Of a stretch of DNA of 64,000 bases, positions 43,798 through 58,572 are shown piece after piece. Under the pieces are notes generated by a model. That model did not search any database. It was not told the origin of the DNA and saw only the letters and a program-made list of their open reading frames with translations. The stretch is from Bryobacter aggregatus MPL3 (GTDB lineage Bacteria > Acidobacteriota > Terriglobia > Bryobacterales > Bryobacteraceae), in NCBI RefSeq assembly GCF_000702445.1, contig NZ_JNIF01000003.1, forward strand, positions 434,001 through 498,000. The letters are read 5' to 3'. The position numbers and the translations under genes are program-made. Position 1 is the stretch's first letter; each line of letters opens with the position of its first letter.

Positions 43798-44984
43798 ACG
43801 AGTCCCAGCAGGGCTGTATCCATCTGCTTGCGGAACTCCCCAGGCGAATCGCTGCGGAAGTATCGATGATTCGACATGTCACGCCGGTACTCCCACCGCA
43901 TCTGGAAGCCTTCTGCCATTTCAAAAGTCGAGGTCAGTGTAAAGTCGCGTAAGTTCTGGGATTGGCCGCTGAACAAGCCGCCTTTGTCGTTCAAGAGCGT
44001 GTAACGGGAGGCAACAGACCATCGCGGATGAAAGCGATACCGTGCATAGACAGCGCCCCCGGTCACCCGCTTCGGCGCGTCGTTCGGCAGCAGACGATGG
44101 ATGACGTAGTCTGCTTCCGCCGCGAGAGTCCATTTTGAATTCACGTTCCAGTTCCAGTATGTGTCTAAAATCTGAAGCCGGCCAGAGCGTCCTCCAGGAG
44201 TCTCACGTCCCGCATAGTAGTTCAGATTCCCCCCGAGCTTCGCCGTCGGAGTAAAGCTCAAAATGACCGCCTGGCTCTTGAAGCGATTGAAGTCCTCTGT
44301 CTGATTCGCCCCATTCACCAACCAATAGGTCGCATTGATTTTCTCTGAGACTGGATAGCTGGTGCGCAGGCCCATGTGATAGTAAGGCAGAAAATTGAAG
44401 AAGTAACTCCGGGAATAGTTCATTTGATCTTTCGCATAATTCGTTTCGATCCCCAACGATGAAGCGAACTTGCCCATATCGACCGTGATCCCCTTCCCCA
44501 CCGGAGCGATCACAGTCCCATAAGCCTGAAAGATATTTCGATAGATCGCCGGACGTGGCTCATTCAAACGATTGCCCTGCAGCGTTTGGGTGGCCTGTCC
44601 AAACTGCAGGTCCAAGCGAGCCCCCAAGTAGCGCTTCGCGGCAAGCGAAGCCGCGCGCTCGATCACCACAGTACCCTGGCTGAGCGTGAACGAGTTGTGC
44701 GAAACATCATAGGCACGCAGCTCATTTTTTCCGTCCGCCGGGCGGTTGAAGTTGTATCCGTAATAGCCATCCAGATAAAAGTTCAAGGTAGTGGCAGGGG
44801 CCTGCTCGACCTCCGCCGCCTTCTTGACCTCAGGGAGGGGCGGCACGCTGAGCTTGGCGGCGGGCGCTGCTTCCAACGCAGCCAGCCTTCGCTCCAATTG
44901 TGCAATCTTCTCTAACAACAGCTTCTCCGTTGGGGTCTGCGCCAAGAGCACAGTCCCCCACATCATCAGAACAATGGTTCTCAC
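43764..44984 (-). CDS. Outer-membrane porin-like protein within the kdp operon
   Basis: A 406-residue protein with a signal peptide (TIVLMMWGTVLLAQ), a short coiled-coil (EKLLLEKIAQLERRLAALEA), a Pro-rich linker and a beta-barrel of about 320 residues with many aromatic girdle residues. It resembles the putative beta-barrel porin-2 family (NFYLDGYYGYNFNRP, YLGARLDLQFGQ). It sits between kdpC (2 bases upstream) and kdpD, so it is probably induced with the K+ pump and may admit cations through the outer membrane. Ion specificity is inference. Confidence 0.78.
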   Translation of the reverse strand: MRTIVLMMWGTVLLAQTPTEKLLLEKIAQLERRLAALEAAPAAKLSVPPLPEVKKAAEVEQAPATTLNFYLDGYYGYNFNRPADGKNELRAYDVSHNSFTLSQGTVVIERAASLAAKRYLGARLDLQFGQATQTLQGNRLNEPRPAIYRNIFQAYGTVIAPVGKGITVDMGKFASSLGIETNYAKDQMNYSRSYFFNFLPYYHMGLRTSYPVSEKINATYWLVNGANQTEDFNRFKSQAVILSFTPTAKLGGNLNYYAGRETPGGRSGRLQILDTYWNWNVNSKWTLAAEADYVIHRLLPNDAPKRVTGGAVYARYRFHPRWSVASRYTLLNDKGGLFSGQSQNLRDFTLTSTFEMAEGFQMRWEYRRDMSNHRYFRSDSPGEFRKQMDTALLGLVWWFGGKQGAW

Positions 44985-44986
44985 AG

Positions 44987-45571
44987 TTACAACACCCCAT
45001 CAAGAGCAAGATTCAGTTTCAGAACATTCACGCGCTCCTCTCCGAGAAAGCCGAGTTGGCGCCCTTGCGTAAAGCGGTCCACCACCTGCTGCACCTCATC
45101 AACGGACAAATGTCGGGCCCGCGCCACACGCGCAACTTGGTATCGGGCCGCCTCCGGGCTGATGTGCGGGTCGAGTCCCGAGCCTGAGGCGGTCAGCAGA
45201 TCCAGAGGCACAGGGCCGGAGGAATCCGGATTAGCCGCTTGCAAGGCCGCCTTGCGCTCGGCAAAAGCCTTTTTCAGATCCGGATGTAGCGGTCCAAAGT
45301 TCGATCCGGAACTCGCTTCTCCGTTGTAGGCTTTCGGCGAGGTGGCAGAAGGACGGGGCCAGAAGTACTGCTCCTGCTCGAAATTCTGCCCAATCCATTC
45401 CGAGCCCAGCACCGCGCCCTTGGCAGTGATCAGAGACCCTTGCGCCTGCGCGCGAAAACCCAGTTGTCCAATGAGTAAAACCAGAAACGGATATGCCAAT
45501 CCGGTGAGTAGCGTGAAAAGTACAAACGCACGCAGAGATACAAAAAGACCTTCCCTTATCATCTTCATCAC
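44987..45571 (-). CDS. kdpC: Potassium-transporting ATPase subunit C
   Basis: A 194-residue periplasm-facing subunit of the KdpFABC pump with one N-terminal membrane helix. The signature SGSGLDPHISPEAARYQVARVARAR (in part) and the VNVLKLNLALD C-terminus are typical. SGSNFGPLHPDL is also conserved. It follows kdpB by 3 bases. Normal length. Confidence 0.96.
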   Translation of the reverse strand: MMKMIREGLFVSLRAFVLFTLLTGLAYPFLVLLIGQLGFRAQAQGSLITAKGAVLGSEWIGQNFEQEQYFWPRPSATSPKAYNGEASSGSNFGPLHPDLKKAFAERKAALQAANPDSSGPVPLDLLTASGSGLDPHISPEAARYQVARVARARHLSVDEVQQVVDRFTQGRQLGFLGEERVNVLKLNLALDGVL

Positions 45572-45574
45572 TCC

Positions 45575-47614
45575 TTAAAACAGTCCCAGGAACAGATCAA
45601 TTGCTTTGATTCCAACGAAGGGGACAATCAGCCCCCCAACGCCGTAGAGAAGAATGTGCCGTTGGAGCAGCGCAGCAGCTCCCAGCGGCCGGTACTGAAC
45701 TCCTTTGAGCGCCAGAGGAATCAGGACAACGATGATCAGCGCGTTGAAGATCACAGCCGAAAGAATGGCGCTCTCCGGGGTTCGCAAGCCCATCACATTG
45801 AGGGCATTCAGCTCCGGGTAGGTCACGGCAAAGGCAGCCGGCAGAATGGCAAAGTACTTCGCCACGTCATTTGAAACCGAAAAGGTTGTCAACGCACCGC
45901 GAGTAATGAGCATCTGCTTGCCGATCTGCACGATCTCGATCAGCTTCGTTGGATTGGAATCCAGATCGATTAGATTTCCCGCTTCTTTTGCGGCCTGCGT
46001 GCCCGAGTTCATCGCAACAGCCACATCCGCTTGCGCAAGCGCCGGCGCGTCGTTGGTACCATCTCCGGTCATCGCCACAAGACGCCCTTCGCCCTGCTTC
46101 TCGCGAATCAGAAGCAGCTTGCGCTCAGGAGTGGCCTCGGCCAGAAACTCATCCACACCAGCTTCCGCCGCAATGGCAGCCGCGGTAAGAGGATTATCGC
46201 CGGTGATCATGATTGTGCGGATCCCAGCCGCGCGCAACTCACCGAAGCGCTCCTTGATGCCGCCCTTGACGATGTCCTTCAGGTGGATCACACCGACCGC
46301 GCGGCCATCGGAAGTCACCATCAGAGGAGTGCCGCCCCCTCGTGCGATCTCCTCCGCCGAACGGATCATCTCGACAGGCACTTCGCCGCCGCGAGCCTTC
46401 AGATAGGCAGAGATCGCATCGATGCTGCCTTTGCGAACCTCGCGGCCATTCAGATCGACGCCCGACATTCTGGTCTTGGCGCTGAAGGGAACAAAGTGGG
46501 CCCCGAGCGCATGGAGATCGCGCTCCCGCAGTCCATACTTTTCCTTGGCCAGCACCACGACACTCCGGCCTTCCGGTGTCTCGTCGGCAAGACTGGCGAG
46601 TTGCGCGACATCAGCCACCTCGGCCTCCGTCACCCCAGGAGCCGCAAGAAAAGCAACCGCCTGCCGGTTGCCGAGGGTGATGGTCCCGGTCTTATCGAGC
46701 AGGAGAACATCGACGTCACCTGCGGCTTCCACCGCACGGCCAGACATAGCGATCACGTTCGCTTGCAGCATGCGGTCCATACCGGCAATGCCGATCGAGG
46801 ACAGCAGCGCGCCGATCGTAGTTGGAATCAAGCAAACCAGCAGCGCCACCAACACGGTTACGGTTGCCGGCGCCCCCTTCCCTGCTTCGCTCACCGCAAA
46901 GGCAGAGAAGGGTTGCAGCGTCACCGTAGCAAGAAGGAACACAATGGTCAGCGACGCGAGCAGGATGGTGAGTGCAATCTCGTTCGGTGTCTTCTGCCGG
47001 GTAGCGCCTTCCACCAGCCCGATCATGCGATCGAGAAAAGTTTCACCGGGCATTGAGGTCACACGAATGACCAGCCAGTCACTCAGCACCCGGGTGCCAC
47101 CGGTGACGCTGGAACGATCGCCACCGCTCTCCCGGATCACGGGTGCGCTCTCTCCGGTGATCGCGCTCTCGTCCACCGTCGCCGCACCTTCGATCACCTC
47201 TCCGTCAATTGGAATGAAATCTCCCGCTTCCACCAGCAGGACATCGCCTCTGACCAATGCAGCGCTCGAAGTGGCGACAAAACTCGCTCCGTATTGTGGA
47301 ACGCTGAGCTTCTTCGCCATCACGTTACTGCGGGACTTGCGCAAGGTATCGGCCTGCGCCTTGCCACGGCCTTCCGCAATCGCTTCCGCGAAGTTCCCGA
47401 AAAGAACGGTGAACCACAGCCAGAGAGCAATCCAGGCACTGAAGGAGGACAAGTCTTTGATCGCGATTCCGGTCGTGAGGATACTCCCGACAAACACAAC
47501 AAACATCACCGGATTCTTCAGTTGGTGCCGGGGATGAAACTTGCGCAGGCTATCCATCACCGCGCCCCGGAGAATCTCGGGATTTGCAAACAGACTCTGA
47601 TGTTTCTTTGACAT
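45575..47614 (-). CDS. kdpB: Potassium-transporting P-type ATPase subunit B
   Basis: A 679-residue catalytic subunit that hydrolyses ATP to drive high-affinity K+ import. The phosphorylation motif [13 protein letters not shown], the TGES actuator loop ([11 protein letters not shown]), and the hinge [21 protein letters not shown] are intact. Ser in SITGES-type regulation is not resolvable, but SAITGESAP is canonical. Follows kdpA by 12 bases. Confidence 0.97.
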
Positions 47615-47626
47615 TTCGATTTGCTC

Positions 47627-49261
47627 CTAGCGCATCCTCAATTGCTCAACCACCGGGCCTAAAGCCAGCGCAGGCAGGAAGGCCAAGGCGCCGACGATGA
47701 TCACGGTGCCTGCCAGCAGGCCAATGAACAAAGGCGTATGCGTGGGCAGGGTGCCCAAGCCGGGCGGGACAGACTTCTTCGCCGCGAGACTGCCCGCGAT
47801 GGCCAGAACCGGAAGCGCCACCCCAAAGCGCGACAGCAACATAATCACGCCTCCCATCAGATTCACCAGCACCGTGTTCGCGCCATAACCGGCAAAGGCT
47901 GACCCGTTGTTGTTGCTCATCGAAGTGAAGGCATAGAGAATTTCGCTGAAGCCATGCGGCCCATGGTTCAACAAACCGCCCACACCTTGCGGATGCTCCA
48001 CCGCCACGGCGGTCCCCACCAGCACGCACATCGGCGGCACCAGAATCGCAATCGAAGCCATCTTCATCTCAAAAGATTCAATCTTCTTGCCCATGTACTC
48101 CGGCGTTCTCCCCACCATCAGCCCGGCGATAAACACCGTGATGATGGCGAAGACCACCATGCCGTAAAGGCCTGATCCCGCCCCGCCGAACACCACTTCG
48201 CCCAGCATCATGAGGAACATCGTGACGAACTGGCCCACAGGCAGGAAAGAGTCATGCATCGAATTGACGCTGCCGTTGGAGGCCGCCGTGGTGGCTGCCG
48301 CCCAGATGCCGGAATCGACAGTCCCGAAGCGCAGTTCTTTCCCTTCCAGGTTCGGAATCGGAACCGTCTCGCTCCAGACCGCAAGAATGAGCAGGGGAAC
48401 GAAAATCAGAAGCATCGTGGCAAGTAAGGCCCATCCTTGCCTCTTGTCTTTGATCAAGCGCCCAAAGCTGTAACAGAGGGCAGCCGGAATCAACAGAATC
48501 GAAACCACCTCAAATAGATTCGAGAGCGGAGTGGGATTCTCAAATGGGTGCGCGGAATTGGCATTGAAGAAGCCACCGCCATTGGTCCCGAGTTGCTTGA
48601 TAGCAATCTGTGAAGCGGCCGGGCCCATGGGAAGTACCTGACCTCCACTGGTTTTCACATAAGCGTCCAAGTTGTCGATGGTTCCCTGCTGGATCAGCAC
48701 CACGGAAAGCAACAGGGACAGCGGCAACAGGATGTAGAGAGTGGTGCGCGTCAGGTCAACCCAGAAATTGCCGAGTTGCTCCGTCGTCTTGCGCGTGAGA
48801 CCACGGGCCAGCGCCGCGATGATCACCATGCCCGCCGCCGCGGAAACGAAGTTCTGTACCGTCAGCGCAGCCATCTGGCTGAAGTAGCTGAGGGTGTTTT
48901 CGCCGCCGTAGTTCTGCCAGTTCGTGTTAGTTACAAAACTCGACGCGATATTAAACGCGGTGTGAAAGGGCAGATTCCCAAAACCCTGTGGATTCCAGGG
49001 ATGCCACTGTTGGGTCATCAGAATGCCAAGAACGACGAGAAGCCCCCACAGATGGAAGCACAGCCAGTGAATCGAATAACTACGCCAGTTCTGTTCTTCG
49101 TCGGGCCTCGCGTCGCAAAGGCGGAGGATCCAACGCTCCAACGGACCAAGCCAGCGCATCCGACCCTCGTAAACAGCAGCCATATAGGCGCCAAGTGGCC
49201 GGACAGCCGCCAGCAGAATCAAGAGAAATACCCCAATCTGAATCCACGCGTTGGGGGTCAT
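47627..49261 (-). CDS. kdpA: Potassium-transporting ATPase subunit A
   Basis: A 544-residue K+ channel-like subunit of the Kdp pump. Selectivity-filter segments are visible as ASSFVTNTNWQNYGGE, GTNGGGFFNANSAHPFENP, ATTAASNGSVNSMHDSF and TSMNNNGSAFAGYG (one deviation, TSMSNNNGS). Hydrophobic helices lie between them. The start overlaps the kdpF stop by 4 bases. Standard length. Confidence 0.97.
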   Translation of the reverse strand: MTPNAWIQIGVFLLILLAAVRPLGAYMAAVYEGRMRWLGPLERWILRLCDARPDEEQNWRSYSIHWLCFHLWGLLVVLGILMTQQWHPWNPQGFGNLPFHTAFNIASSFVTNTNWQNYGGENTLSYFSQMAALTVQNFVSAAAGMVIIAALARGLTRKTTEQLGNFWVDLTRTTLYILLPLSLLLSVVLIQQGTIDNLDAYVKTSGGQVLPMGPAASQIAIKQLGTNGGGFFNANSAHPFENPTPLSNLFEVVSILLIPAALCYSFGRLIKDKRQGWALLATMLLIFVPLLILAVWSETVPIPNLEGKELRFGTVDSGIWAAATTAASNGSVNSMHDSFLPVGQFVTMFLMMLGEVVFGGAGSGLYGMVVFAIITVFIAGLMVGRTPEYMGKKIESFEMKMASIAILVPPMCVLVGTAVAVEHPQGVGGLLNHGPHGFSEILYAFTSMSNNNGSAFAGYGANTVLVNLMGGVIMLLSRFGVALPVLAIAGSLAAKKSVPPGLGTLPTHTPLFIGLLAGTVIIVGALAFLPALALGPVVEQLRMR

Positions 49262-49341
49262 GAAAACCTCTCAGGATGAATCAGGGCGATCACGAGATAG
49301 ATCAGCAACCCGATCGAGAGGAACAGTCCAATCAGTTCCAT
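49258..49341 (-). CDS. kdpF: KdpF, small stabilising subunit of the Kdp pump
   Basis: A 27-residue single-helix peptide, reading MELIGLFLSIGLLIYLVIAL followed by IHPERFS. This is the classic KdpF form, with the LLIYLVIALIHPERF tail. Its TGA overlaps the kdpA ATG. It is the first gene of the operon and is too short for automatic gene callers. It stabilises the KdpABC complex in the inner membrane. Confidence 0.93.
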   Translation of the reverse strand: MELIGLFLSIGLLIYLVIALIHPERFS

Positions 49342-49447
49342 GCCCTGAGTGTGCTCCTCTTTGCATCAAGACCGAATAAATTTTTTGAGCCAACTGGCAG
49401 GGCTTTCGCCGCTTAATAGACGGTGGAACAATAGACTAGACGCGGCA

Positions 49448-51145
49448 ATGGACTCTCAAACTCAGGAATGGCTCAACCAGCTACTCGCATATAGCAATCA
49501 ACTGCCCGCCGAGCAACGGGAAGAAGCGCTCCGGCAGGCCTGCAGCGGGCGGGAAGACCTTTTTGACGTTGCGTTGCAGATGCTGAAGTCGGGCCAATCG
49601 CCCACCAAAACCATGGCGCCGGCCCGCAATGCTCAGATGATCGGCCCCTACCGGGTGTTACGCGAGCTCGGCAAAGGCGGCATGGGTGTCGTCTATCTGG
49701 CGGTGCGCGACGACGGGGCTTTCCGCAAGAATGTCGCCATCAAGCTGTTGCGCGGCGATGCCGTCACCGCAGAATTCATCGAGCGTTTCCGGAACGAGCG
49801 CCAGGTGCTGGCGAATTTCGACCATCCCAATATTGCGCGTATCCTTGATGGCGGCGACACCGCCGACGGGATGCCGTTCTATGTGATGGAGTACGTCGAA
49901 GGCCGTCCGATTGATCGCTATTGCGACGAAGACAAGCTGAGCCTCAACGATCGGCTCCATCTGTTCCAGAAGCTCTGCGGGGCCATCCACTACCTGCACC
50001 AGAACCAGGTGATCCACCGCGACCTCAAGCCGGCAAATATTTTGGTGTCCACCGAAGGCGTCGTCAAGTTGCTCGATTTTGGCATCGCTAAGCAACTCGG
50101 TCCCTCCAGCCTTGAACTCACCACCGCCGACGGCACGCCCTTAACCCCGGCCTATGCGAGCCCGGAACAATTCACCGGCCGCGCTGATGCCCGCAGCGAT
50201 ATCTATACTCTCGGCGTCATCCTCTATCTCATGCTCACCGGACGCCTTCCGGACCAGGCCACCATCAAGCCCCCGAGTGAGAGCATCCGCGAAGACTTCC
50301 AGCGTACCGTCGAGACGACTAAGCAGTTGAAGAAACGCATCATGGGCGATCTCGATGCGGTGGTGCTGAAGTCGATGCACCGCGAATCGCGGCAACGCTA
50401 TGGGTCGGCCCTCGAGTTCTCAGAAGATCTCGACCGCTTCCTGAGCGGCCAGCCTGTGCTGGCCCGCGGAGGCAGTGGACTGGGATCAAAAAAGCTCGCC
50501 ATCGCCGCCGTAGCGGCGATCACCGTTCTCGGCCTGGGCGGGGGCGGCTATTACTATACGACGAAGCATCAGCCAGAAGCCAAGGTGCAGAAGCCGGTTG
50601 TGGAGCAGCCCCCCCAGCAACAACCGCTACAGGAACAGCCCCGGCCGCAGGAACCGGGGAAGGAAGAGCCGCGCAAGCCGGAACCCGCCAATCTCAATCC
50701 TGCCAAGCAAGAACCGCTCAAGCAGGAACCTGTCAAGCACGAACCCGTTCGCAGCAGCACCGTGGCGGCCACCCAGGCCCCCCGGCAAGAAGCGATCGCG
50801 CAGCAACTGCCCTCGCAACGTCCGCCAGAAACGACACCCAAAACCACAACGCAATCCGCCCCCCCGGCCCCAATCCCGGAAGGTCTTGAGGAAGCAAGAG
50901 ACCGTTATGCCTCCATTGCAGGCCGCGTGGCAGCAACCGAACAGTTATTCAATAAATCGAAGTCCGATCTCGAAGCGAAAGGATTGTCGATCCGCGCCGA
51001 CACCCTTTCTCGCGTGACTTCGATGAAGCTCAATCTCGAACAGGCAAAACAGGATCTCGATCGAGGCAATGTCGCCGGCGCACTCAAGAATCTGACCGCG
51101 GCTGAAGCGCAGTCCGTTCGTGTCAGTCGAGAATTTGGCCGATAG
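49448..51145 (+). CDS. Transmembrane Ser/Thr protein kinase with extracytoplasmic helical module
   Basis: A 565-residue Hanks-type kinase. Residues 64-335 are the kinase domain: glycine loop GKGGMG 75-80, Lys99 in VAIK, catalytic HRDLKPAN from His190, DFG 210-212 and the APE-like ASPE near 237-240. One membrane helix (about 349-370) leads to a Pro/Glu/Lys-rich linker and a C-terminal helical module (about 485-565) outside the cytoplasm. There are no PASTA repeats. Start 49448 (MDSQTQEW) is preferred over a GTG at 49349 that lies in the kdpF promoter zone. Followed by a CsgG-like gene and a secreted protein with the same C-terminal module. Confidence 0.92.
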   Translation: MDSQTQEWLNQLLAYSNQLPAEQREEALRQACSGREDLFDVALQMLKSGQSPTKTMAPARNAQMIGPYRVLRELGKGGMGVVYLAVRDDGAFRKNVAIKLLRGDAVTAEFIERFRNERQVLANFDHPNIARILDGGDTADGMPFYVMEYVEGRPIDRYCDEDKLSLNDRLHLFQKLCGAIHYLHQNQVIHRDLKPANILVSTEGVVKLLDFGIAKQLGPSSLELTTADGTPLTPAYASPEQFTGRADARSDIYTLGVILYLMLTGRLPDQATIKPPSESIREDFQRTVETTKQLKKRIMGDLDAVVLKSMHRESRQRYGSALEFSEDLDRFLSGQPVLARGGSGLGSKKLAIAAVAAITVLGLGGGGYYYTTKHQPEAKVQKPVVEQPPQQQPLQEQPRPQEPGKEEPRKPEPANLNPAKQEPLKQEPVKHEPVRSSTVAATQAPRQEAIAQQLPSQRPPETTPKTTTQSAPPAPIPEGLEEARDRYASIAGRVAATEQLFNKSKSDLEAKGLSIRADTLSRVTSMKLNLEQAKQDLDRGNVAGALKNLTAAEAQSVRVSREFGR

Positions 51146-51177
51146 TGTTATTGAAGATAAGAAAGAGGAGATATTCC

Positions 51178-52494
51178 ATGCGCACTCAAATTGCACTCTT
51201 GGTCGTGCTCAGTTTGGTTCCCGCCAGCGCGCAACAGCCGGCGGGTGCTGTCAAGAAAACCCCTGCAAAACCGGCTGCGGTGCAAAGCCCGCTGGCCAAG
51301 ATCGTCCAAATGGTGGAGATGAAACTCCCGGAAGCCGCAGTCCTCAATGCGATCAAGAGTGCCGGTCCGCTCAACCCTTCTGCCGACGACTTCATTCGCC
51401 TGAAGAAGGCGGGCGCAAGCGACAACGTCATTGTGGCGCTCAGTGGCGGCGAAGTTCCTGCCGCAGCCGCGCCGGTACACACTCCGGCGCATGCGCCGTC
51501 CGCCGCCCCGGCAGCGTCCCCAAGCAGCATGAACACCGACTTTGCAACCGTCTCCTGCGCCCGGCCAGTCAGCTCCAGCAAGCGCGTCCTGGCCATTGAT
51601 GAATTCGATTACGGCACAGTCCGCAGCCAGATCTCCGCCATTTTCGGCACCAACGTCGATCTCGGCAAGGGCATCCTCGCGCTGCTCACCAAACGGCTGG
51701 CCGAGGACGGCAAATACCGGATTGTCGAGCGCAAGAATATCCAGAAGGTGATCTCCGAGCAGGACTTTGGCGCCTCCAATCGCGTCAAGCAGGGGACCAA
51801 TGCGAAGATCGGCCGCGTCCAGGGCGCAGACGCCATCCTGATGGGAACGATTACAGTCTTCGGGTCGGACACGCGGAAAAATAATGTCAATGCCGGAGCC
51901 ATCACCAATGGACGGCTTGGCGGAGTACTGGGCAGTGTCAATGTGGGCAATCGTTCTGACAAAGCGATCGTCGAAATCAGCTACCGCCTGATCGACGCCG
52001 AATCGAGTGAAGTCATTGCCGTCGGTGAGGCGCGCGGGGAATCCAAGCGCAAGTCCAACGGCTTCGGGATTGCGGGTTTCGGCAATGGCAACGGCGGAAA
52101 CGTCGGCACCAATATGACGAGTTCCAACTTCCAGGAAACGATCATCGGGGAAGCCACCGTCGATTGCATCAATAAGCTGGCCGCCGTGGCCAATTCCAAG
52201 GATCAGCAGGTCGCAGGCCGGAGCGTTGAGGTGGAGGCAAAGATTGCCGAGATCGCCGGCAACAAAGTCTATCTGGCGGCTGGAAGTAATGACGGCGTCC
52301 AAAATTGCGATCGATTTGAAATCTCTCGAGTGATCAAGGAGATCAAGGATCCATCGACCGGCGAAGTGCTCGATCTGCAGACTGAACGGATTGGCGACTT
52401 GCTGGTGGTCGAGGTGCGCGACAAGATCTCCATCGCAGTCTTCAACGGTTCTTCCAACCCGAAGGTGGGCTATGTTGCTAAGAAAATTATGTAG
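51178..52494 (+). CDS. CsgG-like secreted protein
   Basis: A 438-residue exported protein (signal MRTQIALLVVLSLVPASA). Residues from about 35-85 form a small helical domain (LPEAAVLNAIKSAGPLNPS and LKKAGASDNVIVALSGG). The centre matches the CsgG/curli-assembly fold: KRVLAIDEFDYG, LLTKRLAEDGKYRIVERKN and GADAILMGTITVFGSD, with a Gly/Asn-rich stretch near 300. The C-terminal 100 residues look like a beta domain. There is no lipobox Cys, unlike true CsgG. GAGGAG precedes the ATG at 51178. No curli subunit genes are present. Confidence 0.8.
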   Translation: MRTQIALLVVLSLVPASAQQPAGAVKKTPAKPAAVQSPLAKIVQMVEMKLPEAAVLNAIKSAGPLNPSADDFIRLKKAGASDNVIVALSGGEVPAAAAPVHTPAHAPSAAPAASPSSMNTDFATVSCARPVSSSKRVLAIDEFDYGTVRSQISAIFGTNVDLGKGILALLTKRLAEDGKYRIVERKNIQKVISEQDFGASNRVKQGTNAKIGRVQGADAILMGTITVFGSDTRKNNVNAGAITNGRLGGVLGSVNVGNRSDKAIVEISYRLIDAESSEVIAVGEARGESKRKSNGFGIAGFGNGNGGNVGTNMTSSNFQETIIGEATVDCINKLAAVANSKDQQVAGRSVEVEAKIAEIAGNKVYLAAGSNDGVQNCDRFEISRVIKEIKDPSTGEVLDLQTERIGDLLVVEVRDKISIAVFNGSSNPKVGYVAKKIM

Positions 52495-53230
52495 TCCGCT
52501 GTTGCTCGCGGCAGCGCTGCTGGCGCAGACAAACTTCGATGCGATGCTGTCGCAGTTCGAGAGTCAGATGGCCGGAGGGCAGGCCAATCCGGAGCAGATC
52601 CAACGGAATCTGACTTTGCTTGCCAGCGGTTTGCGGCAAGGCAATTGGAGCAGTGCCGAGCAGCGGATTCCAGCCACCAACCGGACACTCGGCTATCTGA
52701 ACAGCATCCGGGGCTATGGCAACCGCAATCGCAATCTTGGCCTCGCCATGTCTGGCATCTACCGCCAGATTGGAGGGCTCGAAACCAATCCCCAAAGCGC
52801 TTGGCTGAACTATCGCAATGCCTATCTGTTGTTGAATCCCTATGCGAACGATAGCCAGGTGCGCGGCGAGATGCAGCAGCTCCGCCGGAGTGTTGAGTTG
52901 ATTGAAGCGCGGCTGCCGGAGTTGCCGAAGCTCGACTGGTCGAGCCTGGACGCAGCGGGCCAAAAGGATTATGACAGTGTGATCGAACGCTTTATCAGCG
53001 TCAGCGCAACCGTCAGTTCGGCTGAGGTGACTGCGGAAACGATGCGCCGCTCGATGGCCGATCAGGGTTTGATCGTGCGTCCGGAAATCGTCAGCGGGAT
53101 GACCCGGATGAAATTGAAGCTGGAAGACGCCAAGCGACTCATCGAGCAGCGCAATTATTCCACCGCCAAAGACAGGTTGGCCTCGGCCGAAGCCGAGGCG
53201 CAAAAAGTCCTGAAGTCTTTTGGAGGCTAA
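52472..53230 (+). CDS. Secreted helical protein sharing the kinase C-terminal module
   Basis: A 252-residue exported protein (signal MLLRKLCSPLLLAAALLA). The body is helical, with QSAWLNYRNAYLLLNPYAND in the middle. The last 81 residues align without gaps with the extracytoplasmic end of the kinase two genes upstream, sharing the pattern T-x-MKL-x-LE-x-AK, then AEA and a terminal FG. Start 52472 lies 23 bases inside the CsgG-like gene. Function unknown; the shared module suggests it contacts the same ligand or the kinase itself. The stop directly abuts that of rpoD. Confidence 0.75.
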   Translation: MLLRKLCSPLLLAAALLAQTNFDAMLSQFESQMAGGQANPEQIQRNLTLLASGLRQGNWSSAEQRIPATNRTLGYLNSIRGYGNRNRNLGLAMSGIYRQIGGLETNPQSAWLNYRNAYLLLNPYANDSQVRGEMQQLRRSVELIEARLPELPKLDWSSLDAAGQKDYDSVIERFISVSATVSSAEVTAETMRRSMADQGLIVRPEIVSGMTRMKLKLEDAKRLIEQRNYSTAKDRLASAEAEAQKVLKSFGG

Positions 53231-54769
53231 CTAGCGGGCTGCGAGCAGTGCACGCAGATGGCGGGCCCGCTCCGGACTGCGGAGCTGGCGGAGTGCTTTG
53301 GCTTCGATTTGACGAATCCGCTCGCGCGTCACGTCAAACTCCTGACCAATCTCCTCTAAGGTGTGTTCGCGTTCGCAACCGATTCCGAAGCGCAGGCGAA
53401 TCACTTTTTCTTCCTTTGGTGACAAGGTCTTCAGGATGTTCGCTGTCTCTTCGCGAACATTCGCATCGATCACAGCATCCACCGGAGAACCCACCCAGCG
53501 GTCTTCGATCAAATCGCCCAGTGCGGACTCGCCATCGCGACCGACAGGAGTTTCAAGCGAAACCGGATCGCGGGAGATCGTCTTCAGCTTCTGGACCTTC
53601 TCCACCGGAATATCCATCCGGCGCGCGATTTCTTCGTTCGTCGGAGCACGGCCCAATTCCTTCTCGAGCTCACGAGTCGCTCGCAGGAATTTGTTCATGC
53701 TCTCGTTCATGTGAACGGGGATGCGGATGGTACGGCTCTGGTCGGCAATCGCGCGGGTGATAGCCTGGCGAATCCACCAGGTCGCATAGGTCGAGAATTT
53801 GTAGCCGCGGCGATATTCGAACTTGTCGGCGGCACGCATCAGACCGATGTTGCCTTCCTGGATCAAATCGAGCAGGTGCAGGCCACGGTTGACGTACTTT
53901 TTGGCGACACTGACCACAAGACGGAGGTTCGCCTCCACCAGATCTTTTTTCGCCCGTTCGGCTTCGCTTTCGCCATTGCGAATGTTGTGCAGCGAAATCC
54001 GCAGATCCGACAGCGAGGCGGCAGCAATCTGCTCGCGCTTCTTAATCTCACGCTTCAATTCGCGAACGCGGCTCTGGACATTCGGATTTTGTTTGCCGGT
54101 TTCGAGCTTTTCGTTCTCTGTCGCCAGATGATTCATCTCTTCGACAGCATGCTCGAGGCTCTTAGTGAACTGCTTCCACCGGGCCAGAGTCCACGGCACA
54201 GCACGGATTCCGATCGAGAGATCGACGCGAGCGCGGTTGTACTTGCCAAGCGCCTTCTTCTTGAGCTTTTTGTTGATCGCAGGAGCAGACTCCCACTTGT
54301 CAAAAAGCGGCTGCAGCTTGCGTTCGAGCAGAACCACCTGATTGAATTGCTCGAGAACGACCTTCGCCTTCCGCTCCTGAGCGGCGGTTCCTTCTTCAAT
54401 ATCCACGCCCAGATCGACCACCTCGTCGATATCGGTCTGCGCGCGTTTTACTTCCTCGATCAGATTCAGCACCATCTGGTGGACCAGCGGCGAGCGGCTC
54501 AGCGCTTTTTGCGCGCGAACCTTGCCTCGTTCCATCTTGCGGGCCAACGTCACTTCACCTTCACGAGTCAACAGCGGAACAGCGCCCATTTCGCGCAAGT
54601 AAACGCGAACGGGATCGTCGGTGTATATCGATTCCTCTTGCTGAGGCTGGCCTTCTTCTTCTTCGCTCTCTTCTTCTAGAGCTGCAAAAAAATTAGGATC
54701 CTCATCAAAGGACAGGCCAATGGCTTCCGGAGCCTCTTCTGGCTGAAATTGGTCGTCAAACGTATCCAC
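53231..54769 (-). CDS. rpoD: Primary sigma factor RpoD
   Basis: A 512-residue housekeeping sigma-70. Region 1.2 is in [22 protein letters not shown]. Region 2 has [37 protein letters not shown] and [19 protein letters not shown]. Region 3 follows IRIPVHMNE, and region 4 has [22 protein letters not shown]. The N-terminal part is short and acidic (EEESEEEEG). It starts with GTG, behind GAGGT about 8 bases upstream. Confidence 0.97.
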
Positions 54770-54832
54770 TCTGGATTACCTCACCCTCAAGACACACGTG
54801 TCTCAGAACCGACCCAATAGGGGGCCCCGGCT

Positions 54833-54850
54833 CCAAAAAATATTTTTTGG
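54833..54850. promoter_or_regulatory. Perfect 18-base palindrome upstream of rpoD
   Basis: CCAAAAAATATTTTTTGG is a perfect palindrome 64 bases before the rpoD start. It lies in the 254-base gap (54770-55023) between rpoD and nrdR. It could be a dimeric regulator site, or simply a bent A-tract region stimulating the promoter. The rest of the gap holds a weaker 7-base inverted repeat (54955-54961 and 54971-54977). I see no gene in it. Confidence 0.4.
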
Positions 54851-55023
54851 CAGTTTCTGGAAATATTTAGTTTTGAATCGCTTGCATGGTGGGTGGGTTC
54901 CCTGCCGGCTGCTGGAAGTGAGCTCGGCGCTTGGCAAGCGCATCCCGTTTAGTCTAACATTGAACTGCTGAATGTTAAACTCCTATTTCAATTGATGCTC
55001 GAGATCTCAAATAGTTACAGCTT

Positions 55024-55488
55024 CTAGAAGCGCCCCTTGTCCTTGATCAGCCGGCGGATTTCGTTGAAGAAGGCCTCTTCGTCCTGGAAATCCCGGTAAA
55101 CGCTGGCAAAGCGAACGTAGGCGATCTTGTCCAGTTGCTTCAAACTCCTCATCAACATTTCCCCGATTGCGGTAGAACTGAGTTCCCGCTCGGCTTCGTT
55201 CATCATCTGCGCTTCTACTTGATCGACAAGTTCGGCCAGTTTCGGTATAGGAATGGGCCGCTTTTCACAGGCCTTGAGCAATCCGCTCAGTACTTTCTGC
55301 CGATCGAAGCGTTCGCGGCGGCCGTCCTTTTTCACTACCATGAAGGGAATCTCTTCGATGCGTTCGTAGGTGGTGAAGCGTTTCTGGCAGGACAGGCATT
55401 CCCGCCGGCGGCGGATATTGCTGCCCTCCTTGGATTCCCGCGAATCGATCACTTTGTCTTCCAGATGAGCGCAAAATGGGCAAAGCAT
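55024..55488 (-). CDS. nrdR: Transcriptional repressor NrdR
   Basis: A 154-residue zinc-finger/ATP-cone repressor of ribonucleotide reductase genes. The zinc ribbon has CPFCAHLEDKVIDSRES and RRRECLSCQKRFTTYER. The ATP-cone has PFMVVKKDGRRERFDRQKVL. Length is normal. It follows the flippase-like membrane protein gene by 2 bases. No nrd genes are in the window. Confidence 0.96.
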   Translation of the reverse strand: MLCPFCAHLEDKVIDSRESKEGSNIRRRRECLSCQKRFTTYERIEEIPFMVVKKDGRRERFDRQKVLSGLLKACEKRPIPIPKLAELVDQVEAQMMNEAERELSSTAIGEMLMRSLKQLDKIAYVRFASVYRDFQDEEAFFNEIRRLIKDKGRF

Positions 55489-55490
55489 TT

Positions 55491-56585
55491 TTATCGAGTC
55501 TCCTCGGCAAGGTGGCGCATGGAACTCAGGCTCAAGCCTTCCTGCAGCGCAAACGCGATCCCAAACGGCAGAATCAGCATCGCAGAAGTAATCCAGATCA
55601 CAATTGCGAGCGACGTGGCGTCTTCAAAACCAAAGCCATACAGTTGGGTGAGCACCGCGATAGCCGCCATCTGCATGCCCCCGCCAATCCCGGGCAACTG
55701 CACAATGCTGCCAAAACTCACTAGCCCAACAAAAGCGACGATATCGCCCACACCCAATGCACTCGATACCGGAAAAGCCCGGAAAATTGCCCATACGCTC
55801 CCCGCAATCACCAACCATTCCATCGCCGTATAGAACAACACCAGCCACTGGAGCTTCGGATCGCTGCAAGCCGCTGCCCCGGCAATGAAGTTGCCGGCTA
55901 GAGGGCGCAACCGCTGCGCCAGCTTGTCCGGCAACCGATCGACAAGAGAAACAAGGCCCTCACGCTGCCTGGGATTGAGAAAACGGAGGGCAAAAATAAA
56001 AAGCAGGCAGAGACTCCCGGCCAGCAAGGCAAGCGCTCCACCGCTTGAAAAAACAAATTGTAACTCCGGCCCGGCCTTGGCGACAATTGCCGTCCCGGAA
56101 AGATGCACCAGGCCATAGCCGAAAAAAAGAATCACCACCAGCAGGTCATAAATGCGTTCAAAGAGCCAGACAGCCAATTGGGATGAGAAGGTAGTACGCG
56201 ACTCGCGTCCGATCCACCAAGGCCGGACAAACTCTCCCGGTCTGCCAAGCAGAACCACGGCGGTGAAGCCAATCGAGGTGCCCACGAAGAGCCGCCACAG
56301 GCTCGGCGTCGGCCCCAGTGGGCGAATCATTACCTCCCAGCGTACCGCTCTGCCTACATAACTGAGTATTATGAGTAAGATAGCCAGCGCGCCAAATCGC
56401 GGATCGAGGGACTCGAGAGTCGCACCAAAGCGTGCCCAATCGAAACCAGCCCCACCCGCAGCGGCCCGATACAGAACGACGCCGATGACAGCCAATACCA
56501 GTAGCGCACCCCAGGGGATCCCAGTCCCTTTTGCTGCCGGCTGCCCGTCGGTTGAAGAATTTGTTCCCACGTGTGAACTTATCAT
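55491..56585 (-). CDS. LPG synthase-type/UPF0104 flippase-like membrane protein
   Basis: A 364-residue integral membrane protein with about eight helices. The family signature VVLLGRPGEFVRPWWIGRES (Gly-Arg-Pro-Gly-Glu) and PGIGGGMQMAAIAVL near the C-terminus identify the lysylphosphatidylglycerol synthase membrane-domain family. It has no catalytic C-terminal synthase domain, so it is likely a lipid flippase-like or unknown transporter. The Met at 56585 behind GAGG is preferred; an upstream frame to 56744 would overlap the divergent sigma gene. Confidence 0.83.
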   Translation of the reverse strand: MISSHVGTNSSTDGQPAAKGTGIPWGALLVLAVIGVVLYRAAAGGAGFDWARFGATLESLDPRFGALAILLIILSYVGRAVRWEVMIRPLGPTPSLWRLFVGTSIGFTAVVLLGRPGEFVRPWWIGRESRTTFSSQLAVWLFERIYDLLVVILFFGYGLVHLSGTAIVAKAGPELQFVFSSGGALALLAGSLCLLFIFALRFLNPRQREGLVSLVDRLPDKLAQRLRPLAGNFIAGAAACSDPKLQWLVLFYTAMEWLVIAGSVWAIFRAFPVSSALGVGDIVAFVGLVSFGSIVQLPGIGGGMQMAAIAVLTQLYGFGFEDATSLAIVIWITSAMLILPFGIAFALQEGLSLSSMRHLAEETR

Positions 56586-56620
56586 GATAAAACCTCGTTT
56601 CTCTAATCGGAAGACAGCGA

Positions 56621-57295
56621 ATGATTCATCTCTCAAATGTCGCGGCACAGGCAGCCCCCACCGGAAACACCTGGGCAGCGCCTGTGTTTCAGTCCTCTCT
56701 CTCTCAAACATCTCCCTGGGGAATCGCATTGGACGCCGATTCAATACTGGTTGAGCGCTGCATTGCTGGCGATCAGGGATCCTGGGAAGATCTGATCAAA
56801 ATTCATACGCGGCGCGTATACGCGATTTGCTATCGCTTCGTCGGCAAGGACGAAGAAGCCCAGGATCTGACGCAGGAAGTTTTTCTGCGCATCTTCAAAA
56901 CACTGCATAGTTTCCGTGCCGGCGAAGGAAGCTTCACCGTCTGGCTCACACGCCTGACGCGCAACCTTCTGATTGATCACTACCGCAGAACCAAGGGGGA
57001 ACGGATGACGGACTCTCTCGAAAACCAACTGCCGATGATCGAAGAGACCTCGCTCGCCGGGGGACGCACCGACGGGCTGCTAGCTGGACGTGAGGCCAGC
57101 GAAATCCTGCAGGCTGCTTTGCAAAAACTTTCTCCCGAACTGCGGGAAGCCGTCATTCTGCGCGACCTCCAGGAAATGGAGTATCGCGAAATCGCAATCG
57201 CACTCAGCGTCCCGGAGGGCACAGTCAAGAGCCGGCTCAATCGGGGCCGGGCAGAATTGGCTCGCATCCTGAAGCGCCAGAAGGTGACGGTCTAA
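56621..57295 (+). CDS. ECF RNA polymerase sigma factor, second copy
   Basis: A 224-residue RpoE-like sigma factor. Region 2 is LIKIHTRRVYAICYRFVG, EEAQDLTQEVFLRIFK and SFTVWLTRLTRNLLIDHYRR. Region 4 is LSPELREAVILRDLQEMEYRE and VPEGTVKSRLNRGRAELARI. The first 35 residues are a non-conserved extension. The next gene, adjoining base to base, is its zinc anti-sigma factor. It probably drives its own operon through 60180. Confidence 0.94.
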   Translation: MIHLSNVAAQAAPTGNTWAAPVFQSSLSQTSPWGIALDADSILVERCIAGDQGSWEDLIKIHTRRVYAICYRFVGKDEEAQDLTQEVFLRIFKTLHSFRAGEGSFTVWLTRLTRNLLIDHYRRTKGERMTDSLENQLPMIEETSLAGGRTDGLLAGREASEILQAALQKLSPELREAVILRDLQEMEYREIAIALSVPEGTVKSRLNRGRAELARILKRQKVTV

Positions 57296-57874
57296 ATGAA
57301 CGAACTTCAGTGCCTCGGCATCGATGAACTTCTTTGCGATTACGTGGACGGGACGCTGAGTGCCGACCAGAAAAGCGCATTTGAGGCCCACACCCAGAGT
57401 TGCCCGGCTTGTGCCGAACTCGTCAGCGATGTGGTGGGTTCTGTCCATTTCATGGAGCGTGCGGCAACCGTCGAGGCGCCCAAGGAGCTCCTCACCCGAA
57501 TTCTCAATCAGACTCCCAAGCATGCGCCGCTCGTCGATGCCATCTCACGCATCGGCTGGGCCAGGCGCTTCATGGCGCCGCTGCTGCAGCCGCGCTTTGC
57601 CATGGGAATGGCGATGACGATTCTCAGCTTCTCTATGCTGGGCAAATTCGTTGCGCCCGTGCGGCAACTGAAGGCCAGCGATCTTGAACCCGCCAAAGTC
57701 TGGCGCAGCGTCGATGATTCCGCCCATCGCACCTGGAACCGTTTTGTAAAGTATTACGACAATCTCCGTTTGGTCTATGAAGTACAAACCGCGATCGATG
57801 ACATCAAAGGGGACACGGATGACCAACCGGGGAGCCCTAAATCCAACACCAAGAAGAGTGGAGAGTCAAAATGA
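57296..57874 (+). CDS. Zinc-binding anti-sigma factor
   Basis: A 192-residue anti-sigma factor. The ZAS motif is complete: Cys14 (ELLCDYVDGTL) and His32-x3-Cys36-x2-Cys39 (HTQSCPAC). A hydrophobic segment (FAMGMAMTILSFSMLG, about 100-116) may anchor it in the membrane, leaving a C-terminal tail outside. It begins right after the sigma stop and overlaps the next gene by 4 bases. It would hold the sigma factor inactive until an envelope or redox signal. Confidence 0.9.
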   Translation: MNELQCLGIDELLCDYVDGTLSADQKSAFEAHTQSCPACAELVSDVVGSVHFMERAATVEAPKELLTRILNQTPKHAPLVDAISRIGWARRFMAPLLQPRFAMGMAMTILSFSMLGKFVAPVRQLKASDLEPAKVWRSVDDSAHRTWNRFVKYYDNLRLVYEVQTAIDDIKGDTDDQPGSPKSNTKKSGESK

Positions 57875-58572
57875 ACCCCACCGAAAATGAACCCCTCTCC
57901 GGGAACGGGCAGCAACCGGAAGCTGCCGCCCCCATCGTCGGCTATTGCCGCGCGACCGGAAAGGCACTCACGGCAGAAGATGCAACTTATGTCGGCGGCA
58001 TCCTGTACTCGAAAGAGTACGCCGAAAAGACCAGGCTCACGCAGGAACCGCTCTCGCCCTATACCGCCCCTGTCATGGGAAACCCGAAAAACGACATCTC
58101 GCCCGGTTGGGCCTTTGTTCTTGGGTTGATCCCCGGCGTCGGCGCCATCTATAACCAGCAATACGCCAAGGGTCTCTTTCACATCGTCGTGTTCGCCTCT
58201 CTGATCTCGCTGCTCGACCGCGCCGGCAACGGCCACGTACTGCTGAGTTTGCTCCTGGCCGGGTGGGTCTTCTATATGCCGTTTGAGGCTTATCACACTG
58301 CACAGAAGCGGCAGAACGGCGAAGTCGTCGACGAGATGACAGGCTTGGTCAATCTCCCCCAAGGTCTGCGCAAGCTCCCGATCGGGCCCTTTGTGCTGAT
58401 TGCGTTCGGTTTTCTGTTTCTGCTCGACAATCTGGGACTGTTGCGAATTGATGAATTGATGCGTTTCTGGCCAGTGATCCTCATCGCGATCGGCGTACTG
58501 TTGCTGATGCAACGCATGCAGGAGGCAGAAGCCATCGCCTCCTCGCCGAAGGAACAACGCCATGCAGAATAG
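57871..58572 (+). CDS. Membrane protein with C-terminal LiaF-type helix pair
   Basis: A 233-residue protein. The cytosolic N-terminal part contains CRATGKALTAEDATYVGG. There are hydrophobic segments around GWAFVLGLIPGVGAIYNQQ (TM2-like) and LISLLDRAG. The end carries the LiaF/DUF5668 helix pair: PIGPFVLIAFGFLFLLDNLG and FWPVILIAIGVLLL. It overlaps the anti-sigma gene by 4 bases and the next gene by 11. It is a likely target of the ECF system. Specific function is unknown. Confidence 0.72.
   Translation: MNPTENEPLSGNGQQPEAAAPIVGYCRATGKALTAEDATYVGGILYSKEYAEKTRLTQEPLSPYTAPVMGNPKNDISPGWAFVLGLIPGVGAIYNQQYAKGLFHIVVFASLISLLDRAGNGHVLLSLLLAGWVFYMPFEAYHTAQKRQNGEVVDEMTGLVNLPQGLRKLPIGPFVLIAFGFLFLLDNLGLLRIDELMRFWPVILIAIGVLLLMQRMQEAEAIASSPKEQRHAE

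Follow-up and report, generated by a model that had tools for sequence, protein, structure and literature searches.

A helical module common to a membrane kinase and a predicted exported protein recurs with csgG-type genes in Acidobacteriota

The window analysed here is a 64,000-nucleotide (nt) stretch of the Bryobacter aggregatus MPL3 genome (NCBI RefSeq assembly GCF_000702445.1, contig NZ_JNIF01000003.1, positions 434,001 to 498,000 of the forward strand). Positions below are those of the window; stretches from related genomes carry L numbers. At 49448-53230 the plus strand carries three co-directional genes, which encode a Hanks-type Ser/Thr kinase, a CsgG-type protein and a third protein predicted to be exported. 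The kinase and the third protein end in the same helical module, and at this and related loci the recurrent pair is the module together with a CsgG-type protein. The open-access literature, a body from which most subscription journals and terms written with a slash fell outside our scope, yielded no description of such a locus; this agrees with an earlier sequence-only reading of the window, which knew of no comparable system, and is weak evidence of novelty.

The three genes and their products

The kinase gene (49448..51145, +; ATG start, 565 amino acids (aa); Pkinase PF00069, E 1.7e-43) stops 32 nt before the start of the csgG-type gene (51178..52494, +; ATG start, 438 aa; CsgG PF03783, E 4.3e-24). 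The third gene (52472..53230, +; ATG start, 252 aa) begins inside the end of csgG, with an overlap of 23 nt.

The cytoplasmic catalytic domain of the kinase (49649..50398, +; residues 68-317 in the Pfam match) scores 149.4 bits against PF00069, which places the protein among the Hanks-type kinases. It is followed by a single predicted transmembrane segment (50495..50551, +; the Kyte-Doolittle maximum, residues 350-368), a stalk of about 108 aa that is rich in Pro, Gln and Glu (50552..50875, +) and the 81-aa C-terminal module (50900..51142, +). This order is what would be expected if the module lies outside the cytoplasm behind a Pro-rich stalk, as the sequence-only reading had proposed. The same architecture is seen across the kinases that carry the module, the window kinase included. 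The HRD and DFG patterns occur in all 60 of those longer than 450 aa, the catalytic Lys column in 59 and a hydrophobic segment (value 1.6 or higher) that separates the kinase domain from the module also in 59; three shorter open reading frames (ORFs) among the 63 module kinases were excluded from these counts. The linker has a median length of 128 aa and a median Pro fraction of 0.17, with 48 of the 60 at 0.12 or above.

In combining a Hanks kinase domain with one transmembrane segment and an extracytoplasmic C-terminus, the window kinase resembles the PASTA kinases (PknB/Stk1). It differs from them in scoring 244.1 bits against NF033483, where the cut-off is 450, and in the absence of any PASTA family from the Pfam scan, and is not assigned to that group. 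A PADLOC search matched the kinase to 37 families, with all of the 25 that were listed lying over the kinase domain, and returned no family for the CsgG-type protein or the third protein.

The CsgG-type protein starts with a signal-peptide-like hydrophobic stretch and scores 85.4 bits against PF03783 (cut-off 20.8), well within the CsgG family. The CsgG domain itself (51571..52182, +), delimited by Pfam and profile alignment, has two Gly-rich insertions. Ahead of it lies an extra N-terminal domain (51289..51441, +), predicted by AlphaFold2 to be helical (helices within residues 38-88). The block at residues 41-90 reaches a pLDDT (predicted local distance difference test) of 71-78 in an otherwise poor model, which was built from five close sequences, has a mean pLDDT of 37.6 and is unusable beyond these helices, so that its support is weak. 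No Pfam family was found for this domain, and in the stretches searched its profile matched only csgG genes at E < 1e-3. Behind the CsgG domain is a FlgT_C/TsaP-like C-terminal domain (52210..52467, +), recognised by a PDB match to a LysM-domain protein (E 0.0017) and by the alignment of the family profile with TsaP (E 8.2e-8). Against FlgT_C itself (PF16538, cut-off 27) three relatives score 25.4, 27.3 and 22.3 bits, and the window protein is not listed in the Pfam scan. The score against LpoB (PF13036) is 20.0 bits, below the cut-off of 22.3.

The CsgG channel of curli systems carries an N-terminal lipobox Cys and forms an outer-membrane barrel from two transmembrane beta-hairpins. The family profile of the window protein aligns with solved CsgG chains (E 5e-4) across the stretch that we take to hold the first hairpin. 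Unlike the curli exporter, however, the window protein has no lipobox pattern and has the extra N-terminal domain and the FlgT_C/TsaP-like tail. The lipobox pattern is also missing from 63 of the 68 CsgG proteins collected, the other five being unvetted pattern matches. Neither CsgF nor curlin repeats (PF10614, PF07012) were detected in any of 11 genomes, in a search that found the E. coli positive control and did not include CsgE. We therefore reject a curli system and a canonical curli export pore as the identity of this protein, and a curli-channel role is unlikely. The sequence-only reading had left a choice between an export pore and a periplasmic assembly, and the second is the likelier: the protein probably oligomerises, either in the periplasm or at the outer membrane. 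The C-terminal domain is similar to those of the envelope ring proteins FlgT and TsaP, but here this tail is joined to a CsgG domain and encoded beside a kinase, and no LysM family appears in the Pfam scan. One csgG copy in a related locus (L065:12616-13721, -) is split across two overlapping frames and may be a broken gene or a sequencing error.

The third protein also begins with a signal-peptide-like hydrophobic stretch. The sequence-only reading had it secreted; that start is consistent with export and would suit a periplasmic as well as an extracellular protein. No Pfam or NCBIfam family matched above chance. The N-terminal helical domain (52589..52912, +) is delimited by AlphaFold2 helices and by a profile match to the periplasmic parts of long kinases (see below), and it may be TPR-like (Foldseek matches at E 0.15 and worse). 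The C-terminal module (52985..53227, +) comprises predicted helices at residues 164-197, 204-225 and 229-249.

The C-terminal module and its linkage to csgG

Over their C-terminal 81 residues the kinase and the third protein show a gap-free alignment with 25 identical positions, in line with the count of about 25 made by eye. Their Smith-Waterman score is 119, compared with a shuffle mean of 29.9 (standard deviation 5.5, maximum 62; 5000 shuffles). When the hydrophobic/polar pattern was kept, none of 5000 shuffles reached 119 (mean 34.4, maximum 86). In the B. aggregatus genome, the sole second match to the third protein at E <= 10 is the C-terminus of the window kinase (E 2.5e-7). Profiles of the kinase-borne modules and of the free modules (those carried by kinase-free genes) align over 95 columns (hhalign probability 99.8, E 2.4e-27). 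Scored with the profile of the opposite side, all members reach at least 49.3 bits, in a comparison that is partly circular, as many of the kinases had been recruited using the third protein. Three further operon-linked ORFs score 25.0-59.6 bits, and the next best among 3,730 ORFs scores 9.2 bits. The pattern-preserving shuffles and the score gap to other ORFs lead us to reject generic coiled-coil similarity, a doubt that the sequence-only reading had itself raised, and the module is treated here as a specific family.

Members share an invariant Gly in an inter-helix loop, an R-M position after this Gly in many sequences, and A..L..A near the end. The module sits at the C-terminus or a few residues from it. 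AlphaFold predicts three helices from nine close sequences of the third protein, with block pLDDT values of 88-95 over residues 171-250. The Pfam family matched most widely was YfdX, in 7 of 35 members (best E 0.0014), and the strongest individual match had E 1.7e-4 in one member. The best match among PDB sequences has E 0.011 and suggests no convincing family, and a Foldseek search with the complete third protein gave no match at E <= 0.001. A known domain is thus rejected as the identity of the module, given the lack of a convincing match in Pfam, NCBIfam, PHROGs or PDB. By these sequence criteria the module is an undescribed helical domain in Acidobacteriota, with a clear sequence signature.

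At E <= 0.001 the third protein finds a counterpart in 48 of the 200 genomes searched in the order. Matches over its full length occur only in the genus of the window (8, window included); almost all of the rest span the C-terminal module, in some cases together with a weaker match to the N-terminal part. A search of 200 genomes of the class with the C-terminal 108 residues of the kinase (E <= 0.01) gave matches in 45, which belong to families f1, f6, f7, f8 and f11 of our numbering. A profile search of the phylum, which scored only 13 candidates per genome, matched 12 of 396 genomes, and three of these (G537, G599 and G675; L084-L086) were not confirmed by a later profile search. A second search of the phylum with one module from the clade B kinases described below matched 6 of 396 genomes and missed the source genome, and is therefore considered insensitive.

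We fetched 80 stretches around matches (L036-L115) and searched their ORFs with profiles; six (L084, L085, L086, L107, L109 and L111) gave no match to the three profiles. With the window, the census comprises 63 module kinases and, in addition, 31 kinase-free genes with the module; some of the latter ORFs start at the edge of a contig (L047:3-455) and could be fragments of longer genes. A csgG gene lies on the same strand within 1 kb of 46 of the 63 kinases and of 28 of the 31 kinase-free genes, mostly less than 60 nt away. It precedes all 28 linked kinase-free genes; among the linked kinases it precedes 33 and follows 13. This linkage spans families f1, f6, f7, f8, f11 and f41, both gene orders and different kinase domains.

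Within genomes, the linkage goes with kinases that carry the module. Ten genomes contain 15 CsgG matches and 181 kinase matches, and 13 of the 15 CsgG matches fall in a locus with a module gene. Eight of the ten module kinases adjoin csgG, compared with none of 171 other kinases at 12 CsgG loci (Fisher p 1.8e-12, in genomes picked for module presence, with adjacency judged from the CsgG side and two CsgG loci viewed over 1.5 kb on each side). Across the ten module-bearing genomes, matches to the catalytic domain number 4 to 48 per genome, consistent with the large numbers of Ser/Thr kinases that Acidobacteriota can carry; the B. aggregatus genome has 22, and two CsgG matches, one of each belonging to the window locus.

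All three genes occur together in the window and in six relatives within its genus, and also in L051 and L052; L038 ends at a contig edge. Kinase and csgG alone make up 35 of 57 informative loci (of 60, three with an incomplete CsgG being excluded), so the third gene is optional. The co-occurrence of the three genes that the sequence-only reading called for holds within the genus and in L051 and L052, and the wider pattern is that of module plus CsgG. Eight loci (L043-L046, L048-L050 and L054) have the order csgG-csgG-third gene without a kinase in the fetched stretch, L043 being a short contig on which a single csgG piece is visible. Four (L053, L065, L056 and L069) have at least two csgG ORFs and up to three free modules. 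The free module tracks the extra N-terminal domain of CsgG: it is present in 20 of the 21 loci whose CsgG has this domain, versus 1 of the 36 without it.

The relationship of the third protein to the kinases is not that of a simple copy. The module is common to both, as the sequence-only reading had it, but the window kinase has only stalk and module, without the N-terminal domain of the third protein. A profile of that domain matches the periplasmic part of long clade A kinases (L047, E 5.8e-19; L065, E 1.8e-17; L057, E 2.6e-13; L061, E 3e-13; more weakly L053, L056 and L059). The link to the L047 type rests on the profile because pairwise BLASTP is weak (E 0.037). The third-protein module is likewise closer to that of L047 (BLASTP E 1e-14) than to that of the window kinase (E 8e-10). 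The module tree has low resolution, being built on few columns and leaving many forks unresolved. In it the 18 rows of full-length free proteins share one 42-row set, supported at 95/96, with long and short clade A kinases, and the third-protein module is no close copy of the window-kinase module. By profile, then, the third protein resembles the complete ectodomain of a sister kinase type. One kinase that lacks the module (L040:13024-15204) is also reached by this N-terminal profile, at E 9.8e-5, and the domain may therefore be a commoner helical type.

The module is joined to several kinds of effector. A kinase-domain tree was built from 82 sequences, 59 of them from module kinases and 23 from kinases that lack the module, after removal of domains with too few aligned columns. 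In it the module kinases are spread over at least three separate lineages with module-less kinases among them. Clade A, which includes the window kinase, has 15 rows inside a 20-row set that also holds five module-less kinases. Clade B has 42 of 46 rows in another supported set, and L108/L110 form a separate lineage. Two kinases (L087:6615-8870, -, and L110:2842-5229, -) have a nucleotide cyclase domain (PF00211) between the kinase domain and the membrane segment. The sole locus with a free module and no N-terminal domain on CsgG encodes, directly downstream of csgG, an exported-looking caspase-like protein that ends in the module (L104:6086-7204, -; PF00656, E 7.9e-37); no module kinase is present in that stretch.

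Divergence of the module follows that of CsgG. Over 45 kinase-csgG loci, module and CsgG distances correlate at 0.84, and those of the module and its own kinase domain at 0.72. Given the kinase domain, the partial correlation of module and CsgG is 0.64, which none of 999 permutations equalled, whereas that of module and kinase domain given CsgG is 0.11. For the 32 loci of clade B taken by themselves, module and CsgG have a partial correlation of 0.54. We see the module as the partner of CsgG mainly because several effectors carry one module and because its divergence tracks CsgG.

Several observations weigh against this reading. Seventeen of the 63 module kinases have no csgG within 1 kb; two of these have one within 4 kb and five lie near contig ends, and ten lack csgG in the fetched stretch (L057, L061, L073, L077-L080, L089, L105 and L106). 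In family f11, only L081 of the five profile-fetched loci (L077-L081) has csgG, and conversely eight loci of the g8 type have no module kinase nearby. The distances of CsgG and the kinase domain stay correlated after the module is taken into account (partial correlation 0.55), so part of the signal is common to the whole locus, and the module contributes only 88 columns. The loci and genomes are also related to one another, so that the Fisher and permutation values do not come from independent trials.

A candidate envelope-sensing pathway

The locus may point to a conserved but unstudied signalling pathway that reads the state of the cell envelope. The CsgG-domain protein with its FlgT_C/TsaP-like tail would be exported and oligomeric in the periplasm or at the outer membrane, and the module would be the part that works with it, as suggested by linkage, exchange of effectors and tracking divergence. 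The inner-membrane kinase would reach into the periplasm on its Pro-rich stalk, and kinase activity in the cytoplasm could change as the module docks at the CsgG assembly or is released from it. LpoB and TonB exemplify contact across the periplasm. The Pro-rich stalk and a CsgG/LpoB-like fold as its partner (LpoB being sub-threshold here) recall these proteins, but the stalk belongs to an inner-membrane kinase, and neither a penicillin-binding nor an energy-transducing partner is present among the three genes.

The third protein would be a kinase-less ectodomain made with CsgG where CsgG has the extra N-terminal domain. It probably occupies the same CsgG sites as the kinase, where it could serve as a structural subunit or compete with the kinase and so set the extent of docking. 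The sequence-only reading had proposed a secreted decoy that tunes kinase activity, and we retain this idea in the narrower form of a free ectodomain that could occupy the kinase's sites on CsgG. The account as a whole, in which an acidobacterial kinase reads a CsgG assembly through its module while a free ectodomain caps or co-assembles with it, falls in our judgement a little short of an even chance. A broader version makes the CsgG-family assembly a receptor platform into which a helical docking module plugs interchangeable outputs, namely kinases of at least three lineages, kinase-cyclases, a caspase-like protease and competing or completing free ectodomains; it is tentative, and we would sooner bet against it than for it.

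Among the alternatives, a receptor hetero-oligomer fares best and is still unlikely. Here the modules of kinase and third protein would pair with each other, the third protein would tune kinase dimerisation, and CsgG would be a separate export or scaffold part. Homologous modules within one gene cluster suit this idea, and a helical module could in principle pack against itself. The free module is, however, missing from 36 of the 57 informative csgG loci; therefore the basic work of the module does not need a free partner.

It is rather improbable that the module serves a CsgG pore as a signal for export or docking, with the free proteins as cargo and the kinase sensing channel occupancy. The position of the module at or near the C-terminus would fit a signal, as would the placement of 28 of 31 free module genes just downstream of csgG and the alignment across the presumed first hairpin. 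The lack of a lipobox pattern in most of the CsgG proteins (63 of 68) and of CsgF and curlin repeats in the 11 genomes speaks against a pore, and the FlgT_C/TsaP-like tail suggests a scaffold instead. That tail, together with the loci that combine at least two csgG ORFs with as many as three free modules (L053, L065, L056 and L069), favours a structural role, in which free ectodomain and CsgG form a ring or scaffold in the envelope, comparable to FlgT/TsaP, whose synthesis the kinase would control without sensing the structure. That the kinase itself carries the module speaks for contact or a common ligand, and we consider this structural reading no more probable than the export signal. Finally, that the genes are merely co-inherited neighbours and the module a generic helical tail is very improbable: the fixed chromosomal place of the locus within the genus and the correlated distances of CsgG and kinase domain would agree with it, but the linkage recurs in both gene orders, in families f1 to f41 as listed above and with different kinase domains, and module cross scores of at least 49.3 bits stand against 9.2 or less for unrelated ORFs.

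If the envelope-sensing account is true, CsgG-type proteins extend from export towards signalling. The locus offers a candidate partner for one recurrent group of acidobacterial kinases, and the different kinase domains, the caspase-like carrier and the free ectodomains amount to natural experiments on the contact between module and CsgG.

Genomic setting

Within the window, a search for RNA elements at 44000-58000 gave no match at gathering threshold, and a scan for promoters and terminators gave a signal no higher than in shuffled sequence. A plasmid search with the kinase module gave no match. In all eight loci of the genus (window included) the third gene adjoins the same sigma factor gene, in convergent orientation and followed by nrdR; in the window the two genes end on adjacent bases (53230-53231), with no gap between them. 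On the other flank, kdpA is seen in three of the eight (the window, L036 and L037), and some of the others end at a contig edge. Immediately before kdpA in the window is a small ORF of 27 aa (49258-49341, -), which resembles kdpF.

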